Below are positions 45,744 to 64,000 of a stretch of DNA of 64,000 nucleotides, piece by piece. This DNA is from a virus. The stretch spans positions 1 to 64,000 of IMG/VR virus record IMGVR_UViG_3300028197_000982. One strand, 5' to 3'. The translations under genes were made by a program, and so were the position numbers. The stretch's first letter is position 1; each line of letters starts with the position of its first letter. The notes under the pieces were generated by a model. The model had not been told where the DNA came from and ran no database searches. It saw nothing but the letters and a program-made list of their open reading frames with translations.

Positions 45744-45766
45744 TTAAATAATTAAATAAAAGTAAA

Positions 45767-46776: not shown

Positions 46777-46789
46777 ATAAATAAAAAGA

Positions 46790-49166: not shown

Positions 49167-49183
49167 TTTAAGTTTTATAAGAT

Positions 49184-49738: not shown

Positions 49739-49745
49739 TATATAA
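49736..49745 (+). promoter_or_regulatory. Putative late promoter element
   Basis: TAATATATAA overlaps the stop of the upstream gene and begins exactly 26 bases before ATG 49762. Confidence 0.5.
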
Positions 49746-49761
49746 ACAAATAGAAAGAGCA

Positions 49762-50118
49762 ATGAAAACATTTAAAGATTACCTTAACGAGGATCATAAT
49801 GAATCTATAGATATACAAAGTTTATTGAATGAATCTTATGATTTAACAGAAGAACAAGAAACCGCAATAGATAATGCAGTTGATAGAATTATGGAAGAAC
49901 ATAATAACGGAAAAGATTTAGAAGTTATTATGGAAGAAATAATTAATGAAGGTATTTTAGGATCTGTTTTAGGTGGTCTTACTGGTTTTGCTTTAGGTAA
50001 ATCCGTAGGAAAGGCTATTGCAAAAGTACTAGGTATTCAAAAAGGAGCCTTATATGATTTATTAACCAGTCGATTAATTGGTGCTGCATTAGGAGCAGTG
50101 TTAGGTAAAAGACTTTAA
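49762..50118 (+). CDS. Leader-tagged glycine-zipper protein (candidate injected membrane peptide)
   Basis: 118 residues. The first ten, M-K-T-F-K-D-Y-L-N-E, align position for position with the T4 IPIII capsid-targeting sequence (M-K-T-Y-Q-E-F-I-A-E). An acidic spacer with two more protease-like sites follows: L-L-N-E24|S and I-I-N-E63|G. Residues 64-118 are a glycine-zipper region (G-S-V-L-G-G-L-T-G-F-A-L-G-K, then I-G-A-A-L-G-A-V-L-G-K-R-L). Processing after Glu63 would release a 55-residue cationic, membrane-active-looking peptide inside the head. Such peptides could assist genome entry. Packaging and processing are inferred from the pattern. Confidence 0.6.
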   Translation: MKTFKDYLNEDHNESIDIQSLLNESYDLTEEQETAIDNAVDRIMEEHNNGKDLEVIMEEIINEGILGSVLGGLTGFALGKSVGKAIAKVLGIQKGALYDLLTSRLIGAALGAVLGKRL

Positions 50119-50128
50119 TTCAATATAA

Positions 50129-50794
50129 TTGATTTACACAGGTATAGATTTTTCTCTTAATAGTCCAGGTACATGTACACAGGACCATAAAGGTAAATAC
50201 ACGTTTATTACATTCTTTAATTACGGTAATAGAATATGGGATGAAGAAGGTAGAAAGATACCTAAGTCATTTTCGGTTCATAAAGAATTAATGGACAATA
50301 AAACAATATTAGGGTTTCCTTATTATAGACAAGTAAAGGATAAGGACTTTTTACTTAGGGAAAGAGAAAAACTCACAGATGGCCAAAACATAGCCGACTT
50401 AATTTCAAATATTTTAATAACATTATATGGAACCGATGAGCATAAGATTGCATTAGAAGGATTTTCTTATGGATCAAAAGGAAACTCATTCATAGATATT
50501 GTTCAGTATAATACATTTTTAAGAAATGAAATAGTTAATGCATGGGGTGTAGAAAATATTTCAATTTATCAACCGTCACATGTTAAGAAATTGGCAGGTA
50601 AAGGTAATGCAAATAAACATTATATGGTAAAGGCGTTCCAAGACGATGTTTTTAACGATAAAGATTTAAGGAAAACAGATTTATGGAAATGGACTCAAGG
50701 TAAAGACTTTACAGAAAAGATTCCTAAACCGATAGATGACTTAGTAGATGCGTACTTTATATTAAATGCGAATAAAGAAAAAGGGTGGTCATAG
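50129..50794 (+). CDS. RuvC/RNase H-fold nuclease-like protein, TTG start
   Basis: 221 residues from TTG 50129; the protein begins M-I-Y-T-G-I-D-F-S-L-N-S-P-G, the first acidic strand of RNase H/RuvC folds, so a later start would remove it. Other core elements: K-I-A-L-E-G-F-S-Y-G-S-K-G-N-S (second acidic strand), I-S-I-Y-Q-P-S-H-V-K-K, then I-D-D-L-V-D-A-Y-F-I-L at the C-terminus with the last catalytic acids. This is the D...E...D-D arrangement of RuvC-like resolvases. A Holliday-junction or flap nuclease for recombination or packaging is a reasonable reading; T4 itself uses the unrelated gp49. Substrate unproven. Confidence 0.65.
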   Translation: MIYTGIDFSLNSPGTCTQDHKGKYTFITFFNYGNRIWDEEGRKIPKSFSVHKELMDNKTILGFPYYRQVKDKDFLLREREKLTDGQNIADLISNILITLYGTDEHKIALEGFSYGSKGNSFIDIVQYNTFLRNEIVNAWGVENISIYQPSHVKKLAGKGNANKHYMVKAFQDDVFNDKDLRKTDLWKWTQGKDFTEKIPKPIDDLVDAYFILNANKEKGWS

Positions 50795-50908
50795 AAATAC
50801 TTTATACATTAAAACCACTAAATACTTTAAGTCTAGTAATTACATACTTCTCTTTCATTAATTTAGTATATTTTATATATAGAGTTTAGAAATTAGTTTC
50901 AGATAATT

Positions 50909-51175
50909 ATGATAAAAGCAATAAAAAATAGAATATTTATTAAAAAAGATGAACTACCTGAGAAAATAGGTAACATTTATGTACCAAAAACCGAAGGGCA
51001 GTATGCTCCTCCTTACTCAGGAACTATCATTTCCGTTGGTGGTGACATAGAAGATACTGATTATAAAGTAGGCTCCCGAGTACTATTTCATGATTTAGCA
51101 GGAACTGAGTTTAAGTATAATGATGATACTATATTCAGTATTAGAGAAAATGATGTAACTGCTATTTTACAATAA
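50909..51175 (+). CDS. GroES-like co-chaperonin (gp31 analogue)
   Basis: 88 residues, near the 97 of GroES. Characteristic elements: N-terminal I-K-A-I-K-N-R-I-F-I-K strand, the mobile-loop region (L-P-E-K-I-G-N-I-Y-V-P), then P-P-Y-S-G-T-I-I-S-V-G-G, Y-K-V-G-S-R-V-L-F, and the closing F-K-Y-N-D-D-T-I-F-S-I-R-E-N-D-V-T-A-I-L. It is recognisably GroES by sequence, unlike T4 gp31, which is highly divergent. It would cap host GroEL, presumably to fold the major capsid protein. The 114-base gap upstream (50795-50908) has no gene but contains T/A-rich promoter-like sequence (TTATATATAG). Confidence 0.85.
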   Translation: MIKAIKNRIFIKKDELPEKIGNIYVPKTEGQYAPPYSGTIISVGGDIEDTDYKVGSRVLFHDLAGTEFKYNDDTIFSIRENDVTAILQ

Positions 51176-51211
51176 AAAAGTTTTATTTAGTCTGAAACTA
51201 AATAGAGATAT

Positions 51212-51221
51212 GAATATATAA
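51212..51221 (+). promoter_or_regulatory. Putative promoter of the gp32-primase operon
   Basis: GAATATATAA, 160 bases before ATG 51372, giving gp32 an unusually long leader compared with other genes here. Confidence 0.5.
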
Positions 51222-51378
51222 TAAACAAAGGAACTGATATTATTGGTGACTTTTAAATGGCATATAACAAGGCAAAGTATATTGGCAATACCCGGGCAAA
51301 TTAAAAATAGGCAATGCTTTGTTATGGCTTTAATTAAATAAATAACAAACAAATAAAAAAGGCAAATTAAAATGGCAA
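51222..51378 (+). promoter_or_regulatory. gp32 leader with iterated GGCAA motifs (candidate autogenous operator)
   Basis: GGCAA occurs at 51271, 51284, 51295, 51310, 51361 and 51374. The dodecamer GGCAAATTAAAA is present twice, at 51295-51306 and 51361-51372, the second copy covering the ribosome-binding region and the A of the gp32 ATG. An open frame of 15 codons (51258-51305, M-A-Y-N-K-A-K-Y-I-G...) lies in the leader and could be a leader peptide. ATAACAA near 51264 can pair with TTGTTAT near 51320. T4 gp32 represses its own translation by cooperative binding to an unstructured leader nucleated at a pseudoknot, so an analogous device is plausible. Confidence 0.5.
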
Positions 51379-52289
51379 ATGAATTCGACATTTTCAGTGT
51401 TAGCGTCAAGGACCTAGACACTGGAGACAGACCGCAAACAACAAGCGATCTTTACACACCAAAACCTGATCAAGGTTCAGACGGTACTTACCGTTCACTA
51501 ATTAGGTTTCTACCTAATGTTAAAAATCCACGCAAACCTTTCGTTCGTAAATATGTCTACTGGTTAGAAGACAGAGATGGGAACGGCTTTTACGTAGACT
51601 CACCTTCAACAGTTGGAGATAAATGTTCTGTACAGGATATGTTCTTTAAACTTAGAAATTCTGAATCTGCTGTAGACAAAAAGATGTCAGAAGGGCTAAA
51701 GCGTAGAGAAGTATTTTATGCATTAGTACAGATCGTAAAAGATCCACAAAACAGAGATCTTGAAGGTCAGGTTAAAATCATGAAATTTGGTTATAAAATT
51801 AAAACCAAAATTGATGAGGAATTAAATCCACAGTTTGATGAACCAACTCAAGTATTCGATCCTTTTGAAGGAAAGAATTTTGAATTAGTAATTTCAAAGA
51901 AAGGTGGTTATCCTAACTATGATTCTTGTAAATTTCAAGGAAGTAAATCGGCAATGACGATTAACGAAGAAGCGGTAACTGCTGATGATGCAGGTAGAAC
52001 TGCTATTCTTGATTTTATTAAAGATGCTCCAGAGTTAAGTAATTTTGATTATAGACCATGGACTGATGATCAAAGAACTAAAGTAATGGGTGTTCTTTCA
52101 CAATTCAGTAATCCAGGATCTTCAATAGAAACTGTAACAAGAAAGCAATCTGCACCTGAACCTGTAAAAGCTGAAGCCGCTGCAACTAAAGTAACGGAAA
52201 CCGCAACAGCACCAGTAACAGAAACCAAAACCGAAGATTCTTCTAAGGGAGATGATTTCGATGATTTTATTAATGGATTAGACCTTTAA
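51372..52289 (+). CDS. 32: Single-stranded DNA-binding protein (gp32-like)
   Basis: 305 residues, the same size as T4 gp32 (301). Features: N-terminal basic/hydrophobic segment, a core with R-S-L-I-R-F-L-P-N-V-K-N-P, K-Y-V-Y-W-L-E-D-R-D-G, then R-R-E-V-F-Y-A-L-V-Q-I-V-K-D and G-Q-V-K-I-M-K-F-G-Y-K-I; the F-x-P-F-E-G-K-N-F segment and a Pro/Ala/Thr linker lead to an acidic C-terminus (D-D-F-D-D-F-I-N-G-L-D-L). The acidic tail is the usual gp32 protein-interaction site. The clear zinc-ligand cluster of T4 gp32 is not obvious. The long leader upstream and downstream primase support the assignment. Confidence 0.82.
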   Translation: MANEFDIFSVSVKDLDTGDRPQTTSDLYTPKPDQGSDGTYRSLIRFLPNVKNPRKPFVRKYVYWLEDRDGNGFYVDSPSTVGDKCSVQDMFFKLRNSESAVDKKMSEGLKRREVFYALVQIVKDPQNRDLEGQVKIMKFGYKIKTKIDEELNPQFDEPTQVFDPFEGKNFELVISKKGGYPNYDSCKFQGSKSAMTINEEAVTADDAGRTAILDFIKDAPELSNFDYRPWTDDQRTKVMGVLSQFSNPGSSIETVTRKQSAPEPVKAEAAATKVTETATAPVTETKTEDSSKGDDFDDFINGLDL

Positions 52290-52293
52290 TAAT

Positions 52294-53367
52294 ATGGGAA
52301 CGGAAGTAGTAATATCTTCTGAAATGAAAGCTCGGATCATCGATAAGGTGGTCCGAGTTCTTCACCTTAACCATTCTCATCCAGAAAAAAGGAGAATGTT
52401 GGAAAGTAAGGAAAGGTTAAATTTTGCATGCCCTTACTGTGGAGATTCAACAGATTCAGTAAGAAAGAAAAGAGGTAATCTTTATTGGAATAATTTACAT
52501 TTTCATTGTTACAATTGCTCCGCGCATGAAAGCTTAGATGTTTTCTTAAAAGATCATAATTTAAATTTTGAAGGTGAAGATAGAATTGATGTTCTTAATT
52601 ACATAAAAGATAACAGTAAAAACTTTTCATTAGGTGAAAGCTTAGAGTTTCATTTATTTGAAAAAGCTAACAATCTTGCATTATCTTTTGATGAAATTGC
52701 ATTAGGTTTTAATGTGTATCCAATAAACTCTTTAACTTATAGGGCATATCCATATTTAAAAAGTAGGCTATTGCATCATAAGACTGAAAAGTTTGGATAT
52801 GATCCAAGACGAAAAGAACTTTATGTCTTTAATTTAAACGGTAAAGAAAAAATTGTAGGATTCCAAGTTAGGGCATTAGATGATAACGGTGGCCCTAAAT
52901 ATAAAACATGGAATATAGAAAGGATATATGATAGATTAAAAAAACCTTTAAATGTAACCGAAGAAGAATTAGATTCTCTAAATAAAATATCAATGATTTT
53001 CGGTATACTTACAACCGATTTAAGCAGGCAGTTTACAGTGTTTGAAGGTCCTATAGATTCTTTCTTTATGACAAATACAATTGGTCTTACTGGTGTTAAA
53101 AAACAAATATTAGATTTTGATGAAATTCCAACGGTTAGGTATTTCTTTGATAATGACATGGAGGGAAAATCTAAAATGATCCAAAAACTAAAAGGCGGTA
53201 ATACTGTTTTTATGTGGGATAAGTTTTTAAAAGATTTTAGAATACCTTCTAAAAAAGTAAAAGATTTAAACGATTTAGTTATGTACGAATACAAGCATAG
53301 GACTGGGTGTTTAAATGAGTTGGATAAATATTTTACAAACAATCATTTAGATCTTATATTTATATGA
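52294..53367 (+). CDS. 61: DNA primase (gp61-like)
   Basis: 357 residues (T4 gp61 has 342). Zinc-binding domain: C46-P-Y-C49-G-D and H-C72-Y-N-C75 near the N-terminus, preceded by a helix. TOPRIM domain: F-E-G-P-I-D-S-F-F with Glu251, and Y-F-F-D-N-D-M-E-G with Asp286 and Asp288. It synthesises RNA primers at the replication fork together with a DnaB-type helicase (gp41), which is not in this window. The start is four bases after gp32. A stable hairpin lies in the first 65 bases of coding sequence (separate entry). The stop overlaps the next start (ATGA). Confidence 0.85.
   Translation: MGTEVVISSEMKARIIDKVVRVLHLNHSHPEKRRMLESKERLNFACPYCGDSTDSVRKKRGNLYWNNLHFHCYNCSAHESLDVFLKDHNLNFEGEDRIDVLNYIKDNSKNFSLGESLEFHLFEKANNLALSFDEIALGFNVYPINSLTYRAYPYLKSRLLHHKTEKFGYDPRRKELYVFNLNGKEKIVGFQVRALDDNGGPKYKTWNIERIYDRLKKPLNVTEEELDSLNKISMIFGILTTDLSRQFTVFEGPIDSFFMTNTIGLTGVKKQILDFDEIPTVRYFFDNDMEGKSKMIQKLKGGNTVFMWDKFLKDFRIPSKKVKDLNDLVMYEYKHRTGCLNELDKYFTNNHLDLIFI
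52331..52357 (+). promoter_or_regulatory. Hairpin within the start of the primase gene
   Basis: CTCGGATC (52331-52338) pairs with GGTCCGAG (52350-52357), eight pairs with one wobble and an 11-base loop. It sits 37 bases after the primase ATG, directly behind the gp32 gene. It might dampen primase expression or stabilise gp32 mRNA. There is no strong T-run. Confidence 0.4.
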
Positions 53368-53582
53368 TAAAAAATTATAATGATTTTGTGACTGAACAAT
53401 TTGATGATTTTTATGATGATTTAGAAACTTCTAAGAAAAAACTTAAATTATTTACTAAGTTTAAAAAGATTGAGACTAATGATGTAACTAGTAATTTTTC
53501 TTTACCTCAACCTAAAAAGAAATTTCAACCTAAGATTAAGAATTATAAAAAGAGTAGTAATAATAATAAAGGAATATTTTAA
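53364..53582 (+). CDS. Small leader-tagged basic protein
   Basis: 72 residues. The N-terminus M-I-K-N-Y-N-D-F-V-T-E|Q fits the capsid-targeting-like leader. The rest is acidic (FDDFYDDLETS) and then strongly basic with Pro/Lys (PKKKFQPKIKNYKKSSNNNK), suited to condensing DNA. A small basic internal head protein, like T4 IPs, is the likeliest reading. It overlaps the primase stop as ATGA and the uvsY start by one base. Confidence 0.5.
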   Translation: MIKNYNDFVTEQFDDFYDDLETSKKKLKLFTKFKKIETNDVTSNFSLPQPKKKFQPKIKNYKKSSNNNKGIF

Positions 53583-54031
53583 TGGCATTTGACGATACAC
53601 AAATAAAAGAAGCTAACGAACAGTTAGAAATTAGACTAGGATCTGATAGAACCGATTGGAAAGGAAAAATTAAAGATCTTGTTTCTAAGCTAAAAAATAT
53701 GAATGAGCTAGCCGAATGCCAAGTAAGAATGTTATCATATCGGCAAATTCTTTTAGATAAAGTAACTGATTTTAAAACTACTATATATAAAAGGAATGCT
53801 ACTTGGGATAGGTACTATAAGCAACAATATCGGGAGTATTCAATTAACTATGATGTTAAATTAACAAACGGAGAAAAGCATCAATTTATAAAAGCTGACC
53901 TTTCTTCGTTAAGACAACAAATTGATATGTTACAATCTCATATAGATTATTATTATGAATGTATTAAGACTTTAGATAATATGGCATTTGCAATAAGAAA
54001 TCGAATAAACTTAGATGACAAGGAATTTTAA
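53582..54031 (+). CDS. uvsY: Recombination mediator UvsY-like protein
   Basis: 149 residues (T4 UvsY has 137). Helical and basic; the C-terminal half has the UvsY pattern L-R-Q-Q-I-D-M-L-Q-S-H-I-D-Y-Y-Y-E-C-I-K-T-L-D-N-M-A-F-A-I-R-N-R-I. UvsY loads UvsX recombinase onto gp32-coated ssDNA. The adjacency to uvsW and the nearby gp32-like gene fit the T4 organisation, in which uvsY and uvsW are neighbours. Stops and starts overlap by one base (TAATG). The uvsX gene is not in the window. Confidence 0.7.
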   Translation: MAFDDTQIKEANEQLEIRLGSDRTDWKGKIKDLVSKLKNMNELAECQVRMLSYRQILLDKVTDFKTTIYKRNATWDRYYKQQYREYSINYDVKLTNGEKHQFIKADLSSLRQQIDMLQSHIDYYYECIKTLDNMAFAIRNRINLDDKEF

Positions 54032-55533
54032 TGGAATTATCTCTTTCTGAAAATAAAAAGTTTTTAGTAATTGATTCATGTACCGAATTGGAATATGAAC
54101 AGTTAAAATCTAGTCTTACTAAGAAAATAGAAGGGTGGCGATTCCATCCCCTAGTAAAGAAAAAGGTATGGGATGGAAATATTTCATTTATTAAAAGAAA
54201 TAAAATTCCTGCAGGATTATGGAAAGAAGTAATAGATATATGTAAACAATATGATTATCAATTTACATTAAATGGAATAACTGATATTTTTGATACTTCA
54301 ATAGATGAAGGTGTATTTAGGTTATGGGTAGATGAATTCTTTTGTAACTCCGAGATTAAGCCTCGTGATTATCAGATAAATGCTGCAATTAAAATTTTAA
54401 AATATAGGAGATGTTTAGCAGAGTTGGCAACTTCCGCCGGTAAAACACTAATCTCATTTATGGTAGTAGCTTACATGATGGAGCAATTAGGAAAGAAGAA
54501 AATTTTAATGATCGTACCTAATGTAAGTTTAGTAGTTCAGGCAAGTGGAGATTTTGAAGAATATAATAAAGGCAGGGTACCTATTAAGATTCAACAAATT
54601 TATGCAGGTGTTAAATTAAGAAAGAGTTCTAATATGGTTATTGGTACTTATCAATCATTAACTAAAAAAGATGAAAAATACTTTAGTCAATTTGATGCCG
54701 TTTTTGTTGATGAAACTCACAAAGCAAAAGCTAATTCAATTCAAAAGATAATGGATAAATGTTGGCATTGTGATTATAGATTTGGGTTAAGTGGAACTAT
54801 TCCTAAAAGAGGAACGGTGAATAGGTTAAGTCTAATGTCTGCAATGGGTCCTTTAGTAACCCAAGTAAAGGCTTCACATTTACAAGAAGAAGGGTTTATA
54901 GCAAAATGTAAAGTATTACAGATCCACATGGACTATGCAACCGATGCACAGAAGGAGGCATTCTCGTCTTTGTCTAAAAACCCATATGATAAACAAAAAT
55001 TATTTAGCTTAGAACAAAATTTTATTAATGAAAGTGAAAAAAGACTAGATTTTGTTTGCCAAGTAATAAAAAAATCCACATCTAATTCATTAGTGTTATT
55101 TCATAAAATTGCATACGGTGAAAAATTATATAAAAAACTTAGAACAATAACAGATAAGAAAGTATATTATGTAGATGGTTCTGTTAAGTCTGATTTTAGA
55201 GAAGAGTTTAAAAAGAGAATGGAAAAGAATGATGATGTTATAATAGTAGCCTCATACGGTACTTTTTCTACAGGTATATCAATTAAAAATATTCATAACA
55301 TATTTTTTACAGAAAGTTTTAAATCTGAGGTGATTATTAGACAATCTATCGGTAGAGGATTACGAACACACAAAAATAAAGATGTTGTAAAAATATATGA
55401 CTTTATTGACGATTTTAGATATAAAGCAGAAGAGCATGACTGGGTAAATTATATTTATAGGCATGGAATGGAGAGAAGAAAAATTTATAAAGAGGAAAAG
55501 TTTCCTTTTGATGTACAAAACGTCAGATACTAA
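54031..55533 (+). CDS. uvsW: UvsW-like SF2 helicase
   Basis: 500 residues. SF2 motifs in order: Q-like/Walker A A-T-S-A-G-K-T (Lys138, Thr139); Ia M-I-V-P-N-V-S-L-V-V-Q; motif II V-D-E-T-H (226-230), where T4 UvsW has a DExH box; motif III G-L-S-G-T; motif V Y-G-T-F-S-T-G-I-S; motif VI Q-S-I-G-R-G-L-R (438-445). An N-terminal small domain (1-110) contains W-R-F-H-P-L-V-K-K-K-V-W-D-G-N. UvsW unwinds R-loops, regresses forks and drives the switch from origin- to recombination-dependent replication. It overlaps uvsY by one base. Confidence 0.87.
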   Translation: MELSLSENKKFLVIDSCTELEYEQLKSSLTKKIEGWRFHPLVKKKVWDGNISFIKRNKIPAGLWKEVIDICKQYDYQFTLNGITDIFDTSIDEGVFRLWVDEFFCNSEIKPRDYQINAAIKILKYRRCLAELATSAGKTLISFMVVAYMMEQLGKKKILMIVPNVSLVVQASGDFEEYNKGRVPIKIQQIYAGVKLRKSSNMVIGTYQSLTKKDEKYFSQFDAVFVDETHKAKANSIQKIMDKCWHCDYRFGLSGTIPKRGTVNRLSLMSAMGPLVTQVKASHLQEEGFIAKCKVLQIHMDYATDAQKEAFSSLSKNPYDKQKLFSLEQNFINESEKRLDFVCQVIKKSTSNSLVLFHKIAYGEKLYKKLRTITDKKVYYVDGSVKSDFREEFKKRMEKNDDVIIVASYGTFSTGISIKNIHNIFFTESFKSEVIIRQSIGRGLRTHKNKDVVKIYDFIDDFRYKAEEHDWVNYIYRHGMERRKIYKEEKFPFDVQNVRY

Positions 55534-55559
55534 TATAGAATATCTTTCTCATGAGAGAT

Positions 55560-55569
55560 GGATATATAA
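55560..55569 (+). promoter_or_regulatory. Putative late promoter element
   Basis: GGATATATAA, a one-base variant, begins 37 bases before ATG 55597. Inverted repeat TATCTTT (55541-55547) and AAAGATA (55584-55590) flanks it. TCTCATGAGA, a perfect palindrome, lies just upstream. Confidence 0.45.
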
Positions 55570-55596
55570 AAAAAGAATCAAAAAAAGATAATTATA

Positions 55597-57120
55597 ATGA
55601 AACCAATTAAAAAGTTTTCAATGATGACTAAAGCCGAAGATTCAATTAATGAATCGGCAGATGTTAATCACGATGCAGTAATGGATCTCGTTAAAAAGAT
55701 GGGTTACGATAGCGTTGACGAATTAAAGAAAGAAAAAAATCTATTAAGTAAATTAGAAGGTTTACTAAAAGATGTTTCCCCAAAACAAGATATATCTGAA
55801 GATGAGCTAGAAGAAGATCGTGCCGAAGATATAGCCGACGAGGTTAAGAAAAAAGGTACTCCTAAATCTTTAGAAGCCGAAGAAGAAAAAGAAGAAGATA
55901 AAGTTGGTGCAGAAGGCGAAGTCGCTGAAGACGAGGAAATGGAAGATGATGATTTAGTTACTAAAGATCAAGAAATTACTAAAGAAGTTCCTGCTGAAGC
56001 TGATGAAGTAGAAGATGAAGATGGTGTTGAGGTTGCTGCTGAGGAAGAAGAAACTCCAGCTGCTACTCGAAGAATTATGGCATTTGAAGATTTCATTAAA
56101 GAAAAAGAAGTTACAATAAATAAGAATGTCAAATATCACGATGATGATGAAGAGAAAGAAGACTACTCTGTTGTTGCTGCATCTGCCGATGCTATTTCTG
56201 AAGATGATGAAGAAGAAGGCAAGGATGATGAAAAGAAAGGTGATGAGTTAGAAGATAAAGGAGATAAGAAAGTTGATTCTGAAGACGATAAAGAAAAGGA
56301 AGATCATTACAAAGGTGCTGTTAAATCTGATGACTCTGAAATTGACGCATTAAAGAAAGATGTTAAATACGATAAAGAAGAAGAAGATGATGATGATGAC
56401 GATGACGATAAGAATGAATCAAGAATTATGTCATTCTCAAACTTCGTAACAGAAGCTTATGATGTAGATGAAGACAGAGCTGATGATATTGAGGACGAAC
56501 TTAAAAAGAAAGGTACTCCTAAATCTTTAGAAGACGAAAAAGATGAATCCGTTGAAGAAGGTGTTGGTGAAGTAATTACTAAAGTAGAAGGTGATGAAAT
56601 TGCTGATGAAGAAGCAGGTGATGATGGTCTTGCTATTCCTGCAGAAAAAGGTGACGGTTCTGAAACTGCTGCTGGTATCGCTGGAGATATAATGGATATG
56701 GGTAAAGTAAAAGTTCAACCTGAATCAAAAGGTGAAGAATTAGTTACTAAAGACCAAAACGTTACAACTGAAGTAAAAGGTGAAGCTGACGATCTTAAGG
56801 ATGCTACTGAAGTTCCTGCAGAAATGGGCGATGGTTCTGAATCTGCCGCAGGTATTGCTGGAGACATAATGAATATGGGTAAAGTAAAAGCTCAGCCTGA
56901 AGCAAAAGGTGCTGCACTAGTTGGAGAAGCTAAGATTAATGAAAAGGATATTACTTCTGCTGATGAATTTAAAGAATATGCAATGGCAATTCTAAAAGAT
57001 GCATTCGGAGATGATTTTGATGAAACTAAAGCAACTGAAACTGCTGATGGTTTACTTAAGAAGTATGGTGAAGATTACGGCGCAATGGTCGGAGCTTTAC
57101 AATCTACTATGGGATCATAA
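55597..57120 (+). CDS. Highly acidic repeat protein with three leader-like motifs (head core/internal candidate)
   Basis: 507 residues, dominated by Asp, Glu and Lys. It starts M-K-P-I-K-K-F-S-M-M with S-I-N-E19|S, then contains R-I-M-A-F-E-D-F-I-K-E (Met161) and R-I-M-S-F-S-N-F-V-T-E|A (Met278), two internal copies of the leader motif. Two sets of internal repeats: D-R-A-[ED]-D-I followed by K-K-K-G-T-P-K-S-L-E (near residues 74 and 290); and G-D-G-S-E-[TS]-A-A-G-I-A-G-D-I-M followed by G-K-V-K (near 354 and 409). The high acidity recalls T4 core proteins gp22 and gp67, which the prohead protease reduces to small peptides. A scaffold/internal-peptide precursor is the leading idea. Confidence 0.6.
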   Translation: MKPIKKFSMMTKAEDSINESADVNHDAVMDLVKKMGYDSVDELKKEKNLLSKLEGLLKDVSPKQDISEDELEEDRAEDIADEVKKKGTPKSLEAEEEKEEDKVGAEGEVAEDEEMEDDDLVTKDQEITKEVPAEADEVEDEDGVEVAAEEEETPAATRRIMAFEDFIKEKEVTINKNVKYHDDDEEKEDYSVVAASADAISEDDEEEGKDDEKKGDELEDKGDKKVDSEDDKEKEDHYKGAVKSDDSEIDALKKDVKYDKEEEDDDDDDDDKNESRIMSFSNFVTEAYDVDEDRADDIEDELKKKGTPKSLEDEKDESVEEGVGEVITKVEGDEIADEEAGDDGLAIPAEKGDGSETAAGIAGDIMDMGKVKVQPESKGEELVTKDQNVTTEVKGEADDLKDATEVPAEMGDGSESAAGIAGDIMNMGKVKAQPEAKGAALVGEAKINEKDITSADEFKEYAMAILKDAFGDDFDETKATETADGLLKKYGEDYGAMVGALQSTMGS

Positions 57121-57151
57121 CAAATCAATATAAATTATAAAAAACAAAATT

Positions 57152-57916
57152 ATGAAAACAATACTAAATTTTTCGGAATTTGTAAATGAAAATTTAAATG
57201 AAGAATCATTTTCTGATTTTAACAAGTCTTCTGGTTTTAAAATGGATTCTAAAGCTAAAAGTACATTAAAAAAATTAAATGTAAATCCTACAAAGTTAAA
57301 GGATGCATTTGATGATTACAGTAAAATCATGAAATACTTAGATTCCAATGGTAAAAAGATTGGTACTGTATCAATACCTAACCCAGGAAGTAAATCAAAT
57401 CCTGAATTTATGTATACTGTTTATGATACTGATATGTATGGCAAAGTATTAACAGGCGATGGAGATTCAGTATTTATTGAAATGGTAAAGGAATCACTTA
57501 ATGAAGGTGAATTTCCATCTTGGGTTGATAAAGGTAGAGTAGACTCTCTCAAAGATATGTTTGCTTATATTGGTGGTGATATTCAAAATGCTGATGGTTC
57601 AGAGCTAACAGTAGCTGATGTTAATAAAAATTACAAACCAGCTTTAAAATATCTAGGAGTAAGATCTATTGATGATATGGGTATGATTGCAAGTTCAATT
57701 GATAATGATGATATGTTTGATGGTGCTGATGCAATAGATAAACAAATGAAAAGTTCTAACTTTCTTGGAGATGATAGAGGAAAGGGAATGAATCCAACTC
57801 CATACACTGCTGCATATAAAGGAATGGTAGGAGATATGAAAGTAATTATAACTCAAGATATTAATGGAGAAAATACTTTTGTATTTGCTGCAACCAAAGG
57901 AGGAAAACTTAAATAA
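57152..57916 (+). CDS. Leader-tagged putative internal head protein
   Basis: 254 residues. The N-terminus M-K-T-I-L-N-F-S-E-F-V-N-E matches the capsid-targeting-like leader, with a second N-L-N-E|E at 14-18 and a third good site S-L-N-E118|G in mid-protein. The region up to 118 contains a strand-rich module (GTVSIPNPGSKSNPEFMYTVYD); after it comes a helical module (V-D-S-L-K-D-M-F-A-Y-I-G-G, K-Y-L-G-V-R-S-I-D-D-M-G) and a last pair of strands (DMKVIITQDINGENTFVF). Protease cutting at Glu118 would split it into two domains. No enzyme family recognised. It is followed by three bases and then the ligase-like gene. Confidence 0.55.
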   Translation: MKTILNFSEFVNENLNEESFSDFNKSSGFKMDSKAKSTLKKLNVNPTKLKDAFDDYSKIMKYLDSNGKKIGTVSIPNPGSKSNPEFMYTVYDTDMYGKVLTGDGDSVFIEMVKESLNEGEFPSWVDKGRVDSLKDMFAYIGGDIQNADGSELTVADVNKNYKPALKYLGVRSIDDMGMIASSIDNDDMFDGADAIDKQMKSSNFLGDDRGKGMNPTPYTAAYKGMVGDMKVIITQDINGENTFVFAATKGGKLK

Positions 57917-57919
57917 AAC

Positions 57920-59191
57920 ATGAAACATATAAAATTGTTTGAAGAGTGGCTGACTGACAAAAGTCAGCCATTTTTGTTTGAAGGTGGTGCCGCTGGCCAC
58001 ATGGCTCACCCATTTGATGATAAGGATTTAACCTTTGGTGATTTTAAGGCAATGATAGATTCTGGTCTTAGAGGTGAATTAAACTTTGAAGAAGATGCTA
58101 CTGAAAAGACTGATGGGCAAAATGCATTTGCTACTATTCAAGACGGTGAAGTTAAATTTGCAAGAAACAAAACAGAGTTAAAGAATCCAATGACTCTTTC
58201 TGAATTTAAGAATAAATTTGAAGGGCATCCTAGTAAATTAGTACAAGATACTTTTCAATTTGCCGCACAAGATTTAGCTAGGTTACTAATGAACCTTTCA
58301 CCAGCTGACCAAGAAAAGTATTTTAAGAATGGAAAAGACTTTATGAACATGGAGTTAATCTATTCACAAAACCCTAATGTTATTCATTATGATACAGACG
58401 TTATTCAATTTCATGGTATAAAGGAAACTGATGGAAATGGAAATATTACAGGTACTAATAATAAACCTGCAAAAGAAATTGCAGATATACTTAAAAAGGT
58501 TGAATCTGATATTGGTAAAACGTTTAAAATAATTCCACCTAGAGCTATCAAATTACAAAAGGATTTAGATTTTACTACAAACAAGAAAAGATTTATTAAT
58601 CAAGTTAATGCTTTAGAAAAAAGATACGGTTTAACTGATAGTGATGAAGTTGCTAAATATCACGAAATGTGGTGGAGGGAAATGATAGACAAACAGTTTC
58701 CAAAATTATCACAGGATGTAAAAGAAGGCTTACTTAAGAGATGGGCGTATGGAGATAAGAAGAGTTTAAACATGAGATCTCTTGCTAAACAAATTGGACC
58801 TAAGGAGGCTGCGGTGGTTAAAAAGTTTGATAAAGAAGATGTTGCTAAAAAGTATAAAGAAAACATTAGACCTTTTGAAGATCTGTTCTTAGAACTAGGA
58901 TCTGTAATTCTTAAAAATGCATCTGACTTTTTAGCGGTTAACCCGTCCGATGAAGCACAAAGACTAAGATCTCAAATACAAACAGCAGGGAGCAAGATTA
59001 AAAAGACTGGCGGTGCTGACCAAGTAAGAAGAGTAGAAGCTGAATTAGCAAGGCTTGATAGAATTGGTGGAATAGAATCCATATTTCCAACCGAAGGGAT
59101 AGTATTTAAATATAAAGGAAAAATTTACAAACTTACCGGTACATTTGCTGCAATTAATCAGCTATTAGGTATCATTAAGTACGGTAGATAA
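57920..59191 (+). CDS. Leader-tagged ligase-like covalent nucleotidyltransferase
   Basis: 423 residues. Leader M-K-H-I-K-L-F-E-E-W-L-T-D, then F-L-F-E21|G-G-A-A-G, a candidate protease site. Nucleotidyltransferase motifs: I, E-K-T-D-G-Q-N with Lys63; III/IIIa, M-N-M-E-L-I-Y and D-V-I-Q-F-H-G; IV, T-E-G-I-V-F-K; V, I-Y-K-L-T-G. The conserved G-G-A-A-G-H-M-A-H-P-F block precedes motif I. The mature protein after Glu21 would keep Lys63. The N-terminal catalytic core is thus followed by a helical region (200-345) inserted between motifs III and IV, unusual for ligases. DNA versus RNA substrate cannot be told from sequence. A head-packaged ligase would be injected with the genome. Confidence 0.65.
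   Translation: MKHIKLFEEWLTDKSQPFLFEGGAAGHMAHPFDDKDLTFGDFKAMIDSGLRGELNFEEDATEKTDGQNAFATIQDGEVKFARNKTELKNPMTLSEFKNKFEGHPSKLVQDTFQFAAQDLARLLMNLSPADQEKYFKNGKDFMNMELIYSQNPNVIHYDTDVIQFHGIKETDGNGNITGTNNKPAKEIADILKKVESDIGKTFKIIPPRAIKLQKDLDFTTNKKRFINQVNALEKRYGLTDSDEVAKYHEMWWREMIDKQFPKLSQDVKEGLLKRWAYGDKKSLNMRSLAKQIGPKEAAVVKKFDKEDVAKKYKENIRPFEDLFLELGSVILKNASDFLAVNPSDEAQRLRSQIQTAGSKIKKTGGADQVRRVEAELARLDRIGGIESIFPTEGIVFKYKGKIYKLTGTFAAINQLLGIIKYGR
57947..57979 (+). terminator. Terminator-like hairpin inside the start of the ligase-like gene
   Basis: TGGCTGACT (57947-57955) pairs perfectly with AGTCAGCCA (57962-57970), nine pairs with a six-base loop, and is followed by T-rich sequence (57971-57979). It lies within codons 10-18 of the gene at 57920 and 31 bases after the stop of the upstream gene, the usual place for a terminator. 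It may act as an attenuator between the two genes. Confidence 0.55.
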
Positions 59192-59252
59192 AATAGTAGA
59201 TACACCTATATAGATCACCTGTATTAAGAGTTAATATTTGTAGTATTTGTAT

Positions 59253-59308
59253 ATACTCTGAAAGTAGTAGAGTATGATAAAGGATAGGTATGTGCTGTCC
59301 TTTTTTTT
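59253..59308 (+). terminator. Tandem hairpins with rho-independent terminator
   Basis: In the 168-base gap 59192-59359: ATACTCT (59253-59259) pairs with AGAGTAT (59269-59275), then AAGGATA (59280-59286) pairs with TGTCCTT (59296-59302, one wobble), followed by eight T (59301-59308). The second hairpin is a typical terminator; the first may stabilise the 3' end. No gene is seen in the rest of the gap, except the promoter-like element at 59328. Confidence 0.75.
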
Positions 59309-59327
59309 ATATAGCTATTTAACTAAA

Positions 59328-59337
59328 GAATATATAA
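59328..59337 (+). promoter_or_regulatory. Putative late promoter element
   Basis: GAATATATAA begins 32 bases before ATG 59360, directly after the terminator. Confidence 0.55.
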
Positions 59338-59359
59338 ATTGACAATATAAAATAAGCAA

Positions 59360-62300
59360 ATGAAAGAGTTAACTCAAATTTATAAAGATGCAGGCCAACA
59401 ATTAATAGAAGATCTTTTTAAAGATTATCTCGTAGTATCCGAAAAACTATCTGGTTCTTCATTTTCATTTAAGAAAGACGGTGAAGGGATTACTTTTTAT
59501 AAAGGTGGAAACCAAAAGCCTATTAACTTAATTGATAGGACTATAATGGTTTATTATGAAAAGCCTATTAATTTTATAAAATCTGTAACTAGCAAAAATC
59601 TTTCTTCCATTCCTGAGAATTGGAAGTTCTGTTTTCAATATTTTGTAAATACTAATCCTGGTATTATTACTTATGATAGGCTACCTAAAAATAATTTAGT
59701 ACTTACTCATATTAAAGTGATGACGCCAGCCGGTAAAGTTACAAAGGTTATAGAAGATCCTAGAGTAATTAGAGACTGGGCAAATGCGTTAGGTGTTACT
59801 CCACTACTTCCATTATTTAAAGGTTACTTAACAGAAGATCAAAAGAAAAAAATAAAGGAATTTTTAGACACGCCAAAAGAAGATCATGCTGAAATTTTTA
59901 GTACTAATTCTTTTGCTGAATATTTACTTAGAATTTTAAATCCTAATATTCAATCAACAACTCTACAAAATGATCTTAAGAAGCCTATAGAATCTATTGT
60001 ATTTAAATTTTATAAATCTGGTACCAAACAAGTTATTGCTGCTAAATTAATAGATCCCTATACAATTAACCTAATGAAAGAAAAGGAACCTATCGATATG
60101 AGAAAGGCTCCTGCTGATATTAATGAAATTATTCTATTAGATCTTTTAGCATTTATAGAAGAAAGAGGAATTAAGAAGCATGAGATTTTAGGTGATGCTG
60201 AAGATACAAGATATATTGAACTAGTTTCAAATATATTTAATGACTATGTAACCAAAAGAGGTAAGGATATTGCAAAGATTGATATTGAAAAGGCTGATTT
60301 TGCTAAAGGTAAAGAATTTGATTTAAATGTAGAATTAATACCAAGCCAAAGAACTAAAGATATCCTTAATAGTAATCCTAAGCTAAAAGACTTATTTAAA
60401 ATAATACTAGGTTCTTTAAAAAAGAAAAGAAAGAATGCTGGTAATATTATGACGCCATCTGTTATTGAAGATTTTAATAAAATGGTAGATAAAGTAACTG
60501 ATGTAATTCAAACAAAAGATGATGGTAAATTTAAAACTTTTGATGATTACTTAAAAATTAAATCTACTAATGAATCTCTTTTGCCTAACGCTGAAGAACT
60601 ATTAATTGAAGATAAAGTTTTAGACTATAACAACTTTATTAATTTAGGTAAAGTTATTGTAGAAGATAGTAGAAAGAGTGGTGAAATTTGGAAAACCTCA
60701 ACAGGGTTTAGAGGGCAGGATGCTAACGGTGATAGAAAAACATTTAAGTCTAAAGAACAGACTCAATCGTGGATAAAAACCGGAAGAGAGGATGTTAATA
60801 AAGAACCTACTGAGAAAACCAAAGAATTTGATATTTCTACAATTGATAAAAAGAAAAGCCCTGGGGCATTTAAACTAGCATCAAAATTAAATAAAGTAAA
60901 AGATCCTAAACAAAGAAAAGAGGCAGAGAAAGTAATTAAGTCACTAAACGATTTTGAATCTGCTGATACTGATGCAGATAAAAAGAAAGCATTAGAAGAA
61001 CTAATTAAAAATGGTGACCTTAATAGAAATGCAACTGGTTCTAAAACAGATAAAATTTACTTGGGCCAGCCAAAGGACAATGATAAATTTAGAACAAACC
61101 AAAAAACTGGTTTGCCTTATAAAAATTCAATAGGTGGTGATAGTTCTAAGCTTACTAACAGTATTCTTGATGAGGCTGATAGATTAGGTGTATCTTTTCC
61201 ATTAAATGCTGAGTCTAAAAGAATGGCCGGTGCAAGTGTTGCCCCTAATGCCATACATGTTGATGAAAAAGGTAAGCCAGCAAAACCAGCTAAAATAGAA
61301 ACAATAGAGATTAAAGGTAAAGGTAAACCTGGTGATGATGATTATGAAGCTCCTGGTGTTCAGTTAGGTGGTAAAGATGGTTTAGTTATAAAAGAAACCC
61401 CACCACTTACTGGCAGTCAAAAATCTGATTTAAAAGAAAAATTTAAAAAGGCAGATCCAACAAGAAGCGATGCCGAGATAAATAGGCTAGTATCAATTAA
61501 TGAAGAATTTAGAAATCAAAATAATAAAAAATTAGAAGCCATTAGATCTGGTGAGTTAACTATTGCCCCAATTATTAGAGAAGATGGTTCTGAGGTTAAT
61601 GTATTTGATAAAAAAGGACAAAAGGAAGCTGTAGGTATAATTGCAAAGAATATGACTTCTAGGATAGATGATCTTCTTTCAAATCCACCAGGTTATGAAA
61701 AGAGTCCACAATTACAAAAAGGATTAGATAGTTTTAAAAGTGCAGGTGAAGATTTTTCTAGTGGTAAAATATCAAAAGAAGAATTTAAAAAAGCATCTGA
61801 TGAATTACTTATAGAACTAATGAATGATCCACAAGGTAGATATGGGGGTCCATTTTTACAAGAGACTCTTTTAATGGCAGAAGGATTAAGTGAAGGTCGT
61901 GCTGTGATATCACCTTCGTCTGCTAATTATAAAGTAGCAGACTTAGTAACATTTGATTCAGCTGAATTACCTGCTGATGCTACACCAGAGCAAATTAATG
62001 ATTATGTACAACTAATGTCTGTTTCAGGTGGACCTACATCAATTAAACAGGGTAAAGGTGGAGCAAGTTCTTCTAATTCTAAAATAACCGCTACTGAATA
62101 TGCAGACTATACAGATAATGATGGTAAAGTTACAAAAGGTGCTGATGTTAGACAAGATTTAGAAAATTTAACATCAAAAGGTTTTGACAATATTTGGAAT
62201 ACACCATCAGCTCCTAATAAAGATGGTAAATTTGAAACTTTAGATAAGTCTATAAAAGAAGGCGAAGAATTAGCCAAAAAATATGGGAGCACTGAGTTCT

Positions 62301-62869
62301 TAAAAGATAAAGGCATAATTCCATTATCTAAAAAACAGCAAGAAAAATATGAAAAGAGAGCAAACCCTAAGAGAATTGAATCACTAAAAGAAAGTTATGC
62401 TAAAAAGAAACCACCTATCGAACTATCGGATGATCAAGCAAAAGAGGTATTAATTAAAAGATGGCACGCAACAGATATAAATGGTTATTTAATGATGGAT
62501 ATTAATAATAAGCAACAAATGGCCCAAAGTTTTACCAATATATCAAGATCTGTAGAACCAGTGAACGGTGGTAATTCTGCAATGTCAGAAGAAGATGCAA
62601 AGAGAGATGACAATATTGTAAAAGATTCAAAAGGTAATCCTATTCCTATTGTAGATAAAGATGGGGTACCAGAAACAACTAGTAAAGGTACACCTAAATG
62701 GAGGAGACAAGAGAAGGTGGTCAAACAAGAAACTAATGGAATATCTCAATTAGCTTGTATGGATTATCAATCAACACCAGACTTTACTGATACGGGTAGA
62801 CCAACTAATAAAATGCCAGCATTTGTTAAAAAATGTTCTGATGAAAATAAGTGGATAGGAGATTCTTAG
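59360..62869 (+). CDS. Giant protein with N-terminal ligase-like nucleotidyltransferase domain
   Basis: 1169 residues. The N-terminal ~235 residues have nucleotidyltransferase-like motifs: I, S-E-K-L-S-G-S-S with Lys29; IIIa, W-K-F-C-F-Q-Y-F-V; IV, I-E-S-I-V-F-K-F; V, I-A-A-K-L-I. They are weaker than in the protein at 57920. Next come helical linkers (~235-430), L-L-I-E|D and N-F-I-N-L-G-K-V-I-V-E segments near 415-435, a W-K-T-S-T-G-F-R-G-Q-D motif near 445, and a long, mostly helical Lys/Asp/Glu-rich C-terminal half of unknown fold. It lacks a good N-terminal leader, so packaging is less certain than for its neighbours. An Alt-like giant internal protein is a possibility only by context. 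Confidence 0.5.
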   Translation: MKELTQIYKDAGQQLIEDLFKDYLVVSEKLSGSSFSFKKDGEGITFYKGGNQKPINLIDRTIMVYYEKPINFIKSVTSKNLSSIPENWKFCFQYFVNTNPGIITYDRLPKNNLVLTHIKVMTPAGKVTKVIEDPRVIRDWANALGVTPLLPLFKGYLTEDQKKKIKEFLDTPKEDHAEIFSTNSFAEYLLRILNPNIQSTTLQNDLKKPIESIVFKFYKSGTKQVIAAKLIDPYTINLMKEKEPIDMRKAPADINEIILLDLLAFIEERGIKKHEILGDAEDTRYIELVSNIFNDYVTKRGKDIAKIDIEKADFAKGKEFDLNVELIPSQRTKDILNSNPKLKDLFKIILGSLKKKRKNAGNIMTPSVIEDFNKMVDKVTDVIQTKDDGKFKTFDDYLKIKSTNESLLPNAEELLIEDKVLDYNNFINLGKVIVEDSRKSGEIWKTSTGFRGQDANGDRKTFKSKEQTQSWIKTGREDVNKEPTEKTKEFDISTIDKKKSPGAFKLASKLNKVKDPKQRKEAEKVIKSLNDFESADTDADKKKALEELIKNGDLNRNATGSKTDKIYLGQPKDNDKFRTNQKTGLPYKNSIGGDSSKLTNSILDEADRLGVSFPLNAESKRMAGASVAPNAIHVDEKGKPAKPAKIETIEIKGKGKPGDDDYEAPGVQLGGKDGLVIKETPPLTGSQKSDLKEKFKKADPTRSDAEINRLVSINEEFRNQNNKKLEAIRSGELTIAPIIREDGSEVNVFDKKGQKEAVGIIAKNMTSRIDDLLSNPPGYEKSPQLQKGLDSFKSAGEDFSSGKISKEEFKKASDELLIELMNDPQGRYGGPFLQETLLMAEGLSEGRAVISPSSANYKVADLVTFDSAELPADATPEQINDYVQLMSVSGGPTSIKQGKGGASSSNSKITATEYADYTDNDGKVTKGADVRQDLENLTSKGFDNIWNTPSAPNKDGKFETLDKSIKEGEELAKKYGSTEFLKDKGIIPLSKKQQEKYEKRANPKRIESLKESYAKKKPPIELSDDQAKEVLIKRWHATDINGYLMMDINNKQQMAQSFTNISRSVEPVNGGNSAMSEEDAKRDDNIVKDSKGNPIPIVDKDGVPETTSKGTPKWRRQEKVVKQETNGISQLACMDYQSTPDFTDTGRPTNKMPAFVKKCSDENKWIGDS

Positions 62870-62885
62870 TATTAATTTGATAAGA

Positions 62886-62905
62886 GTGAATAAATAAAAA
62901 AAGTG
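62886..62905 (+). promoter_or_regulatory. Second copy of the 20-base promoter-like element
   Basis: Identical over 20 bases to 38126-38145. GAATAAATAA begins at 62888, 21 bases before ATG 62909. Confidence 0.55.
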
Positions 62906-62908
62906 TAC

Positions 62909-64000
62909 ATGGATAATCTAAAAAACATACAAGATTTTATAACAGAAAAAAGAGTTACTGTTAAGAGGAGATATACTGAAAGACACCCAGCTAAAAATGT
63001 ATCTACTGCAGCTAGAGTTCGTTCTGCTATTTTAGATGCTGTTTCTGATGGTCATTTAACCGAAGATGAAGTTAATAATATTCTATCTGAAATTAAAGCT
63101 CATAAAAGATGGCTTAAAAGAAATGTAGGATTATTTAATATTAGTGAAGATGAAACTGGAGTTAAGAGATATTCTTTATCACCTTATGGTCATAGAGTAA
63201 GAACCGCAACTGCCCCGATTAATGAGGCTTTAAAAGTTCCTCATAAAGAACAAGGTAACAAAAAGGTTAATATGTTTGTTGGTAGATTCCAACCTTTTAC
63301 ATTAGGTCATGTTAAAGTATTTGAAAAAATGTACAAAGAAAATGGAAAACCTGTAGTTGTATTTTTAGTTAGAGGAAAAAACAACGATCCTGAGAAAAGA
63401 CCGTTTGATGAAGAAATGCAACAAGCAATGTTTGCTAAGATGGCAAAACAATATCCATTTTTAGAAACTGCTATTGTAGTTCCTAATGGTTCAATTGATA
63501 CAATGTTTGCAGCTGCAAGGCCTGCTTATGAACCTGTGATGTGGGGATATGGGACAGATAGAAAAAAATCATACGGTGCAATGATTGACAAACAATCATA
63601 CCGAGATCAATTAGGTGTAGATCCTGATTTTAAAGGATATGAAATTTTTAGAACTGATGATAACATTTCAGCATCCAAAGTTCGTAATGCGTTAAAGATA
63701 GATGATGAAAAGACTTTTAAGAAAATGACTCCTAAAAGCATACATAGTTTTTATAAACCATTACAAAATATATTAGAACCAATAAAAGAAAATAACAATA
63801 TGAAAAATTTAAAATCACTAACAAGTTTTAGCATTGACGAATCTTTGAATGAAGGTAAAAAAGCTAAAGCAAAAAACCCTAATAAAGTAAACACTATAGA
63901 TGTTGATTTATCTGGAGACGATTCAGATATAATGGATGCAATTAAATCATTTAATCTAAAGGTTAAATCTAACGGAGCCAATAAAGGAACAGGGTATGAT
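62909..64000 (+). CDS. Leader-tagged GRFQPF-type nucleotidyltransferase, fused to a second leader-like segment (3' truncated)
   Basis: 364 codons visible; the frame is open at the right edge. The N-terminus M-D-N-L-K-N-I-Q-D-F-I-T-E fits the leader motif; a basic helical pro-region (15-100) ends A-P-I-N-E106|A, a good protease site just before the enzyme. The catalytic domain starts at V-N-M-F-V-G-R-F-Q-P-F-T-L-G-H (120-134) and includes I-S-A-S-K-V-R-N-A-L near 255, the two signatures of NMNAT/cytidylyltransferase-type enzymes. At Met298 a second leader-like M-K-N-L-K-S-L-T-S-F-S-I-D-E-S-L-N-E|G-K begins in the same frame without a stop. The substrate (NMN, a CTP-linked alcohol or other) cannot be decided. 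Confidence 0.75.
   Translation, partial: MDNLKNIQDFITEKRVTVKRRYTERHPAKNVSTAARVRSAILDAVSDGHLTEDEVNNILSEIKAHKRWLKRNVGLFNISEDETGVKRYSLSPYGHRVRTATAPINEALKVPHKEQGNKKVNMFVGRFQPFTLGHVKVFEKMYKENGKPVVVFLVRGKNNDPEKRPFDEEMQQAMFAKMAKQYPFLETAIVVPNGSIDTMFAAARPAYEPVMWGYGTDRKKSYGAMIDKQSYRDQLGVDPDFKGYEIFRTDDNISASKVRNALKIDDEKTFKKMTPKSIHSFYKPLQNILEPIKENNNMKNLKSLTSFSIDESLNEGKKAKAKNPNKVNTIDVDLSGDDSDIMDAIKSFNLKVKSNGANKGTGYD

Follow-up and report, generated by a model that had tools for sequence, protein, structure and literature searches.

We report that a 64,000-base window of viral DNA (bases 1-64000 of the 74,922-base IMG/VR virus record IMGVR_UViG_3300028197_000982, classed as linear and called G000 below) encodes a group of proteins that begin with a short leader resembling that of the internal proteins (IPs) of phage T4. 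We propose, with a probability of about 0.78, that this leader is a portable head-targeting tag, borne by cargo that a protease would release and that would enter the host with the DNA. The window is most likely a piece of a T4-like tailed phage, and of a large one; no tRNA genes were found in it. Proteins are named here by the coordinate at which their genes start, or by both coordinates when on the minus strand (Table 1).

The initial annotation had aligned the start of the 49762 protein (MKTFKDYLNE) with that of T4 IPIII (MKTYQEFIAE), and the T4 genome record (NC_000866) bears this alignment out: both IPII and IPIII begin MKTYQEFIAE|A, where the bar marks the position of a cut, and IPI begins MKTFKEFTS...ITE|A. 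T4 gp23 also carries FGSFLTE|A, at residue 65. According to a mutational study of IPIII (PMC9026906), residues 4 and 7 serve targeting and residues 8 and 10 serve processing; aspartate at position 10 blocks processing and leaves targeting intact. The leader pattern, in its strict form M.{1,8}[FY]xx[FYW][LIVM]xE, coincides with the residues assigned to these two functions.

In the record as a whole, the strict pattern was present at 4 of 66 open reading frame (ORF) starts against 2 of 282 internal methionines (Fisher p = 0.013), a comparison in which up to two ATGs were tried per ORF, giving the starts a slight advantage. The 57920 protein has confirmed relatives at 564 IMG/VR positions, the 80 best loci being retained, and it matched three phage-collection records, LR756500 (462 kb), LR756508 (484 kb) and Microcystis phage Mel-JY01 (190 kb). 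Strict tags were found on 5/196 ORFs in G011, 9/145 in G023, 14/204 in G027, 21/611 in LR756500, 17/534 in LR756502, 5/19 in LR756504 and 1/23 in LR745206; the counts were 2/464 in Lak-C1, 1/470 in LR756508, 1/219 in Mel-JY01, 0/187 in Molly_5 and 3/126 in T4, two of these last being IPs. The lengths searched were 400 kb each for LR756502, Lak-C1 and LR756508, 16 kb each for LR756504 and LR745206, and 89 kb for T4. Odds ratios for starts versus internal methionines ranged from 6 to 26 in G023, G027, LR756500 and LR756502 (p 1.4e-4 to 7e-10), and a modest excess was seen when G000 and G011 were taken singly (p 0.013 and 0.019). Where over 20 kb of a tagged record was searched, 0.14-0.75% of internal methionines matched.

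A looser version of the pattern was used for a census of families, drawn from 160 IMG/VR loci, G000, 37 pieces of G011, G023, G027 and G028, and a single piece from LR756500 (2528 distinct ORFs). The match rate was 10.3% at first ATGs (243 of 2366) and 2.0% at internal methionines (237 of 12147). When compared by the part behind the leader (BLAST E 1e-4), 249 leader-bearing ORFs fell into 51 families, among which remote kinship is possible. Perhaps 5-8 of these families are false; the match of the DNA ligase at 6706-8028, for example, is doubtful and may be due to chance. A DNA-end-protector-like protein (phrog_429; L217:3245-3823 and 28 relatives) also matches the loose pattern, in 29 distinct ORFs, possibly by chance. 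Two further observations concern the tagged proteins of single records. A 12-kb stretch of G027 (42780-54340) holds seven strictly tagged ORFs, with leaders close to MK[HKY][IV]KL[FY]E[ED][FY][IV]NE, and has the look of a cargo cassette, and several tagged proteins of LR756500 have similar C-termini (KYEHLxNADDFGFFDN-like), which may be another tag or a domain in common.

The pattern is kept as the leader sequence changes. Across its 80 loci the 57920 protein shows 37 different leaders, among them MKHIKLFEEWLTDKSQPFLFE, MKILSFKDFLIERENKEALDSKLILE and MKTKILNFNQFLTEKYEVKLYESLLLE. Every one of the 80 has two aromatics with two residues between them and then [LIVM], the second aromatic being F or W in 79 and Y in one, and all 80 run into E|GG, with the full strict core including E in 25. 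The LR756500 homologue reads MKFLKSYEEFLNENLILE|GG. In the 49762 family 41 members carry the leader and the Lak-C1 homologue does not. Relatives of the 62909 protein occur in 142 phage records, of which four were examined. In three of these, from cyanophages S-SM2, S-RIM4 and S-CREM1, the cytidyltransferase begins MKSFFQFLSE|A, MKKFSAFLSE|A and MKRYTNFLSE|A, respectively.

An S77 prohead protease, the family of T4 gp21, was detected in 7 of the 34 records searched (G011, G023, G024, G027, LR756500, Mel-JY01 and Lak-C1); in G011, the 57920 homologue is 82% identical to that of the window. A further search returned S77 proteases in 5/5 records, 2 of them above the family cut-off. The protein, known here from the relatives, matches PF03420 at E 1.5e-13, and H72, S127 and S128, which we take to be its catalytic residues, are invariant in 19 sequences. 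In the window's wider group the protease was fused, in all 58 full-length ORFs, to a stretch in which [FY]xx[FYH][LIVM]xE occurs 5-11 times, at a spacing of exactly 14 residues in 420 of 495 cases, and none of 462 other proteins of at least 450 residues had more than 3 copies. The fusions of LR756502, LR745206 and LR756504 hold 11 repeat units each, of which YSEYIAENLDKNIA is an example. The sole ORF with at least three repeat cores in LR756502, and likewise in LR756500, is that of the protease, and no such ORF was found in the fetched stretches of Lak-C1, LR756508, Mel-JY01 and Molly_5. AlphaFold modelled the fusion poorly (mean predicted local distance difference test score, pLDDT, 55); one continuous helix over the repeats, at residues 235-363, is a low-confidence hint. 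The fusion itself is not new, since it already forms a PHROG (phrog_207, fused head maturation protease, 519 positions). By eye, the S77 gene of the 484-kb phage LR756508 (L261) appears to contain an intein-like insert between GELDHP and SSVVNL.

Tags and repeats co-occur: 72 of 1732 ORFs were tagged in seven records with the repeats against 4 of 1340 in four records without them (Fisher p 3e-14). This sum leaves out G000, G024, G028 and T4, and includes two loci of 16 kb each, with 6 tags among 42 ORFs, that were chosen for encoding a relative of a tagged protein.

Eight leader-bearing proteins had been named by the initial annotation, whose ORFs and residue numbers for cleavage sites all proved correctly placed. 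These eight (2078 residues) contain 8 [LI]NE[AGS] sites against 4 in the other 61 ORFs (21652 residues), a ratio of 21, and 13 [LI]xE[AGS] sites against 43 (ratio 3.2, p 9e-4), counts that are partly circular because the proteins may have been chosen by their sites. Control patterns showed no excess in the eight versus the rest ([LI]ND[AGS] 0/7, [LI]xD[AGS] 7/46, [LI]xK[AGS] 2/37). Site conservation was assessed on distinct sequences, many of them closely related. At site 21 of the 57920 protein, P1 is E, P1' is G and P3 is L, I or V in 50/50; at site 24 of the 49762 protein, P1 is E in 47/47 and P1' is S, G or A in 46/47; at its site 63, E|G is found in 47/47, with I, T or V at P3 (T in 15). 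Site 106 of the 62909 protein has E at P1 and I, L or V at P3 in 55/55, and A (37), K (8), G (6) or S (2) at P1'; it sits in a linker of 55% mean identity, and [LIVMF]xE[AGS] occurs within three columns in 44/55. Sites 311, 315 and 397 of the same protein showed no conservation among homologues, and site 118 of the 57152 protein and the sites of the 3941-4186 (-) and 4186-4689 (-) proteins are covered by just 2-3 sequences. A gp21-type site with a conserved P1 glutamate is thus present in the 57920, 49762 and 62909 families, and in the 72 residues of the 53364 protein no [LI]xE[AGS] site was found. Directly after the leader glutamate, the weighted number of families with A, G or S at P1' is 26.3 of 51; for other glutamates it is 8.3 of 51.

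A candidate junction precedes the cytidylyltransferase-like domain (PF01467) of the 62909 protein. In the window's clade, a tagged module of ~105 residues stands ahead of this domain, and the domain formed by residues 1-414 of the 59360 protein is encoded separately; another 18 ORFs have a 59360-type domain fused ahead of the cytidylyltransferase (E 1e-51 to 1e-97). All 27 distinct cytidylyltransferase proteins in the loci, 13 with the tagged module and 14 with the 59360-type domain as partner, have xxE|[AG]L 15-16 residues ahead of the domain, with I, L or V at P3 in 26 and T in LR756500. One type of cut would free the same cytidylyltransferase from two different partners. In Mel-JY01 the enzyme is fused to a 57920-like domain, with IIAE|GG at the junction. 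A ligase label for the N-terminal domain of the 59360 protein was considered and dropped: an EKxxG-like stretch was seen by eye alone, and BLAST gave no match to the 57920 protein at E 1.

Several tagged proteins resemble enzymes. In the 57920 protein, K63, D65, G66, E392, G393 and K404 are invariant in 23 sequences; a KxDG nucleotidylation motif with later EG and K motifs marks RNA ligases and covalent nucleotidyltransferases. Its predicted model has a pLDDT of 75, mostly below 50 over residues 1-29. The best fold match was the fungal tRNA ligase Trl1 (Z 8.5 over 181 residues at 4.8 A, with a tool for which a best Z of 7-8 is common); the first 38 matches shown (Z at least 5.3) were DNA or RNA ligases, and the first other match had Z 4.9. 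The best Foldseek E was 0.011, and a sequence search against solved structures gave nothing useful. A tagged protein of 180 residues in G027 (L112:3684-4223; MKKIKLFEEFMNEA...) matched Acb1 (PF23474) with 30 bits against a cut-off of 27 and has two HxT motifs, at 61 and 136. The leader is also present on the Acb1-like/2H homologues of LR756502 and LR745206 (MIKKYLEFMKES and MKLKKYKQFIKES) and missing from those of LR756508, LR756504 and Molly_5; the 2H phosphoesterase is thereby tagged in three phages and untagged in three others. The general 2H family outscores Acb1 for the LR756502 and LR745206 homologues, and therefore action against CBASS (cyclic oligonucleotide-based antiphage signalling systems) is one option and RNA-end healing another. 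In LR756500, a PNK3P 3'-phosphatase, DUF2201 and leucine-rich repeats were recognized in 3 of 10 tagged proteins scanned, out of 21 strictly tagged. Over all records, Pfam matches exceeded the curated cut-off in 5 of 46 tagged proteins scanned, most being without a known domain. RNA ligases, 2H phosphoesterases and kinases or end-healing enzymes occur together as RNA repair in jumbo phages, as described in PMC7824862. Judged by these likenesses, the proposed cargo would include what resembles a kit for RNA repair and counter-defence, with an RNA-ligase-like enzyme, a cytidylyltransferase, a 2H phosphoesterase and a 3'-phosphatase.

A number of results weigh against a protease-released, head-targeted cargo. 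The window's ~75-kb record yielded no S77 prohead protease (PF03420) and no Gp23 capsid protein (PF07068) and is therefore probably a fragment; because it comes without the protease gene, membership of the window's own virus in the system is not proven, and the gp21-like protease sought by the initial annotation is known from relatives, G011 included. The tag-richest record, LR756500, has just 3 strict repeat-core copies in its protease, at multiples of 14. The co-occurrence of tags and repeats is confounded by descent, because the repeat-less records are distant relatives. In the four cytidyltransferase records opened, the sole non-cyanophage, Vibrio phage SRILMA, has no leader. The repeats are also unlike leaders outside their core: against a profile of 74 leaders, the flanks of repeat cores scored -7.5 and other internal core matches -3.3 (p ~1 in the predicted direction), and 159 of the 200 top internal windows lay outside S77 proteins. 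Among the 30 best of these non-S77 windows, 19 held the 55597-family segment MAFEDF or MTFEDF. We therefore rejected the idea that the leader mimics the whole repeat; the core residues alone are shared, and docking by mimicry rests on them. By eye, kinship between the repeat region and T4 gp22 had seemed plausible; it was likewise rejected (hhalign probability 0.4% against six gp22 proteins), and the S77 fusion had no match to the gp22-type scaffold family PF25623. A likeness between the leader core and gp22 FIDHLAKEW was left unused, the loose pattern being present in just 3/6 gp22 proteins.

The cleavage sites call for similar caution. About half of the leaders in the 51 families have a P1' other than A, G or S, as do 12 of 21 tagged proteins in LR756500 (A, G or S in 9). 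Behind the leader, [LI]xE[AGS] was not enriched in LR756500 (14 in 6462 residues of tagged proteins versus 307 in 132098 of the rest, or 2.17 versus 2.32 per 1000 residues), where [LI]NE[AGS] numbered 3 in tagged proteins and 30 in others; G011, G023 and G027 showed weak [LI]xE[AGS] enrichment (p 0.05, 0.09 and 0.02). The motif excess anticipated by the initial annotation for leader-bearing proteins was thus seen in the window's own record and was not reproduced in LR756500, and site enrichment behind the leader was rejected as a general trait, so that most tagged proteins are probably cut at the leader alone or left uncut. Of the T4-like, tagged and protease-processed set that had been proposed, the leader and the gp21-type protease are well supported, by the IPIII residues, by S77 in relatives, by the many families and by the P1' bias after the leader glutamate; general enrichment of sites behind the leader is not.

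The tagged proteins could instead belong to the structure of the prohead core, associated with the scaffold as T4 gp67 and gp68 are, and be mostly degraded in maturation rather than delivered. We regard this as unlikely for the set as a whole. The acidity of the 55597 protein (33% D+E) and its leader-like segments (two internal ones in 36/38 acidic homologues), the shortness of the 53364 protein, which has no domain match in a Pfam scan, the core pattern common to leaders and protease-linked repeats, and the scarcity of Pfam domains would all suit such a role, and the 55597 and 53364 proteins could indeed be core proteins instead of cargo. Against this reading, some tagged proteins resemble enzymes, with the catalytic motifs K63xDG kept in the 57920 protein and two HxT in the Acb1-like protein, and with PNK3P and DUF2201 domains, and a cut at the conserved junction would release an entire domain instead of breaking it up.

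Because the link to the head is drawn here from sequence, and because leaders with K or N at P1' need not be cut, one may also ask whether the leader directs proteins elsewhere or confers some other property (as a signal for a compartment, membrane, translation or stability) and only resembles the T4 tag. This seems to us improbable, given the coincidence with four functional IPIII positions, the bias for A, G or S after the glutamate, the scarcity of tags in the four records that lack a fusion of S77 protease and repeats, and the like leader on cytidyltransferases of T4-like cyanophages, a group of which another member, MC09, has a gp21/gp22/gp23 head cluster. Finally, a pattern so short and degenerate will turn up at some N-termini without biological meaning, as the background rate at internal methionines, the doubtful families such as the DNA ligase and the modest excess in G000 and G011 singly remind us. 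Chance is nevertheless a very improbable account, already refuted for the group as a whole, in view of the odds ratios in the four richer records and the persistence of the pattern through changes of leader sequence.

In the head-targeting mechanism that we infer, a leader of ~10-20 residues (M, then [FY]xx[FYW][LIV]xE) would form a short amphipathic helix and dock by its two aromatics onto the prohead core, for which the predicted helical array of 14-residue repeats fused to the S77 protease in relatives is a candidate dock. The same protease would cut after [LI]xE, at the leader where P1' is A, G or S, or later (LFE|G, INE|A, LNE|S). Cutting would release the cargo within the head, from which it would enter the host together with the DNA. 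Some cargo would be made as polyproteins and split at conserved sites.

The genes of the window concerned are collected in Table 1. The eight leaders of the initial annotation are of unequal quality: those of 3941-4186 (-), 49762, 53364 and 57152 are clear, those of 57920 and 62909 are looser and backed by homologues, and those of 4186-4689 (-) and 55597 are weak, the last being weak at the start of the protein though two internal copies are conserved.

Table 1. Leader-bearing genes of the window and an associated gene (coordinates in the window; bars mark candidate cuts).
Product	Coordinates	Strand	Leader	Sites and other features
118-residue tagged protein	49762..50118	+	MKTFKDYLNE	LNE|S at 24, INE|G at 63; glycine-rich C-terminal segment
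72-residue protein	53364..53582	+	MIKNYNDFVTE	32 family members
507-residue acidic protein	55597..57120	+	MKPIKKFSMM (degenerate)	INE|S at 19; internal FEDFIKE at 163, FSNFVTE|A at 280
254-residue protein	57152..57916	+	MKTILNFSEFVNE	LNE|G at 118, covered by just 2 sequences
423-residue RNA-ligase-like protein	57920..59191	+	MKHIKLFEEWLTDK...FLFE|G	motif K63-T-D-G; invariant LFE|G at 21
1169-residue protein	59360..62869	+	none	residues 1-414 homologous to N-terminal domain fused to cytidylyltransferase in relatives
N-terminal part of 456-residue tagged protein	62909..64000 (ends at 64279 of the record)	+	MDNLKNIQDFITE	INE|A at 106; cytidylyltransferase-like domain from ~123
81-residue protein	3941..4186	-	MIPKFNNYLNE|A (site 11)	one homologue only
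167-residue protein	4186..4689	-	MKKVPLFEDFIPV / MKKVPLFEDFI, no E (weak)	LNE|G at 100

The C-terminal segment of the 49762 protein looks glycine-zipper-like by eye, with a Pfam match under the cut-off. Beyond the window, at 64279-64506 of the record (L002:9279-9506), and at 17 other loci, a small protein repeats LNPNMNVQ.MG..LPG.PGS, the segment that follows LNE|S in the major capsid protein of relatives of the G011 type; in most cases it continues with a run of lysines and ends in LLSFDKYMEL, which is like the leader core, and a longer version has DUF3008 in front. Elsewhere, several tail or fibre proteins contain very long GxQG/GxTG collagen-like repeats (window 9750-13214, record 69756-74922), and a collagen-like tail protein of 988 residues (42777-45743, +) includes a segment, SCFIAGTSI...VHNKG, with a Hint/intein-type look by eye.

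Injected proteins are normally found by virion proteomics, which is impossible for uncultured huge phages; a tag readable from sequence would turn their discovery into a search, with some 5 to 20 cargo candidates per phage. The RNA-ligase-like, 2H-phosphoesterase and 3'-phosphatase enzymes would then act before phage gene expression, as tRNA-cleaving and CBASS defences fire, and the core common to tag and repeat offers a testable explanation of how a T4-type leader of ten residues recognizes the prohead core. In its fullest form the proposal is tentative, and we would sooner bet against it than for it: huge T4-like phages would pre-load an RNA-repair and counter-defence kit, a tag copying key residues of the protease-fused repeat would make any gene cargo at the cost of ~12 codons, that protease would release the cargo, and the injected proteome of uncultured phages of up to 640 kb could be read from sequence. 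In the titles and abstract openings searched, a range that left most subscription papers outside, such a tag in huge phages was not described.

Among known systems, this one is best filed as an enlarged variant of the T4 internal-protein system, by analogy. It shares with IPI-IPIII an N-terminal leader with aromatics at the targeting positions, the [LI]xE motif, an S77 protease (here in relatives) and unrelated cargo with only the leader in common. Unlike the T4 IPs, the tagged proteins number up to ~20 per record and include enzymes of several hundred residues, some cargo is polyprotein-like with conserved junctions, the protease carries a long repeat array, and P1' is often not A, G or S. 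In the giant phage SPN3US, too, a prohead protease processes a whole set of head proteins, with propeptides proposed to act in targeting (PMC5694885); the protease is gp245 (PMC10052503). It differs in that, as far as the available text of PMC5694885 goes, several propeptides exceed 100 residues, one pair of proteins (gp53/gp54) has identical N-termini and no short tag recurs on many proteins, and no gp22 counterpart is confirmed there. In phage P1, an N-terminal signal sends the anti-restriction protein DarB, and a reporter, into the head, which is like the case here but concerns one protein (PMC9024508). The RNA repair of jumbo phages is presented in the available part of PMC7824862 with no statement on head packaging, whereas here members of such a repertoire bear a tag like those that target proteins to the head.

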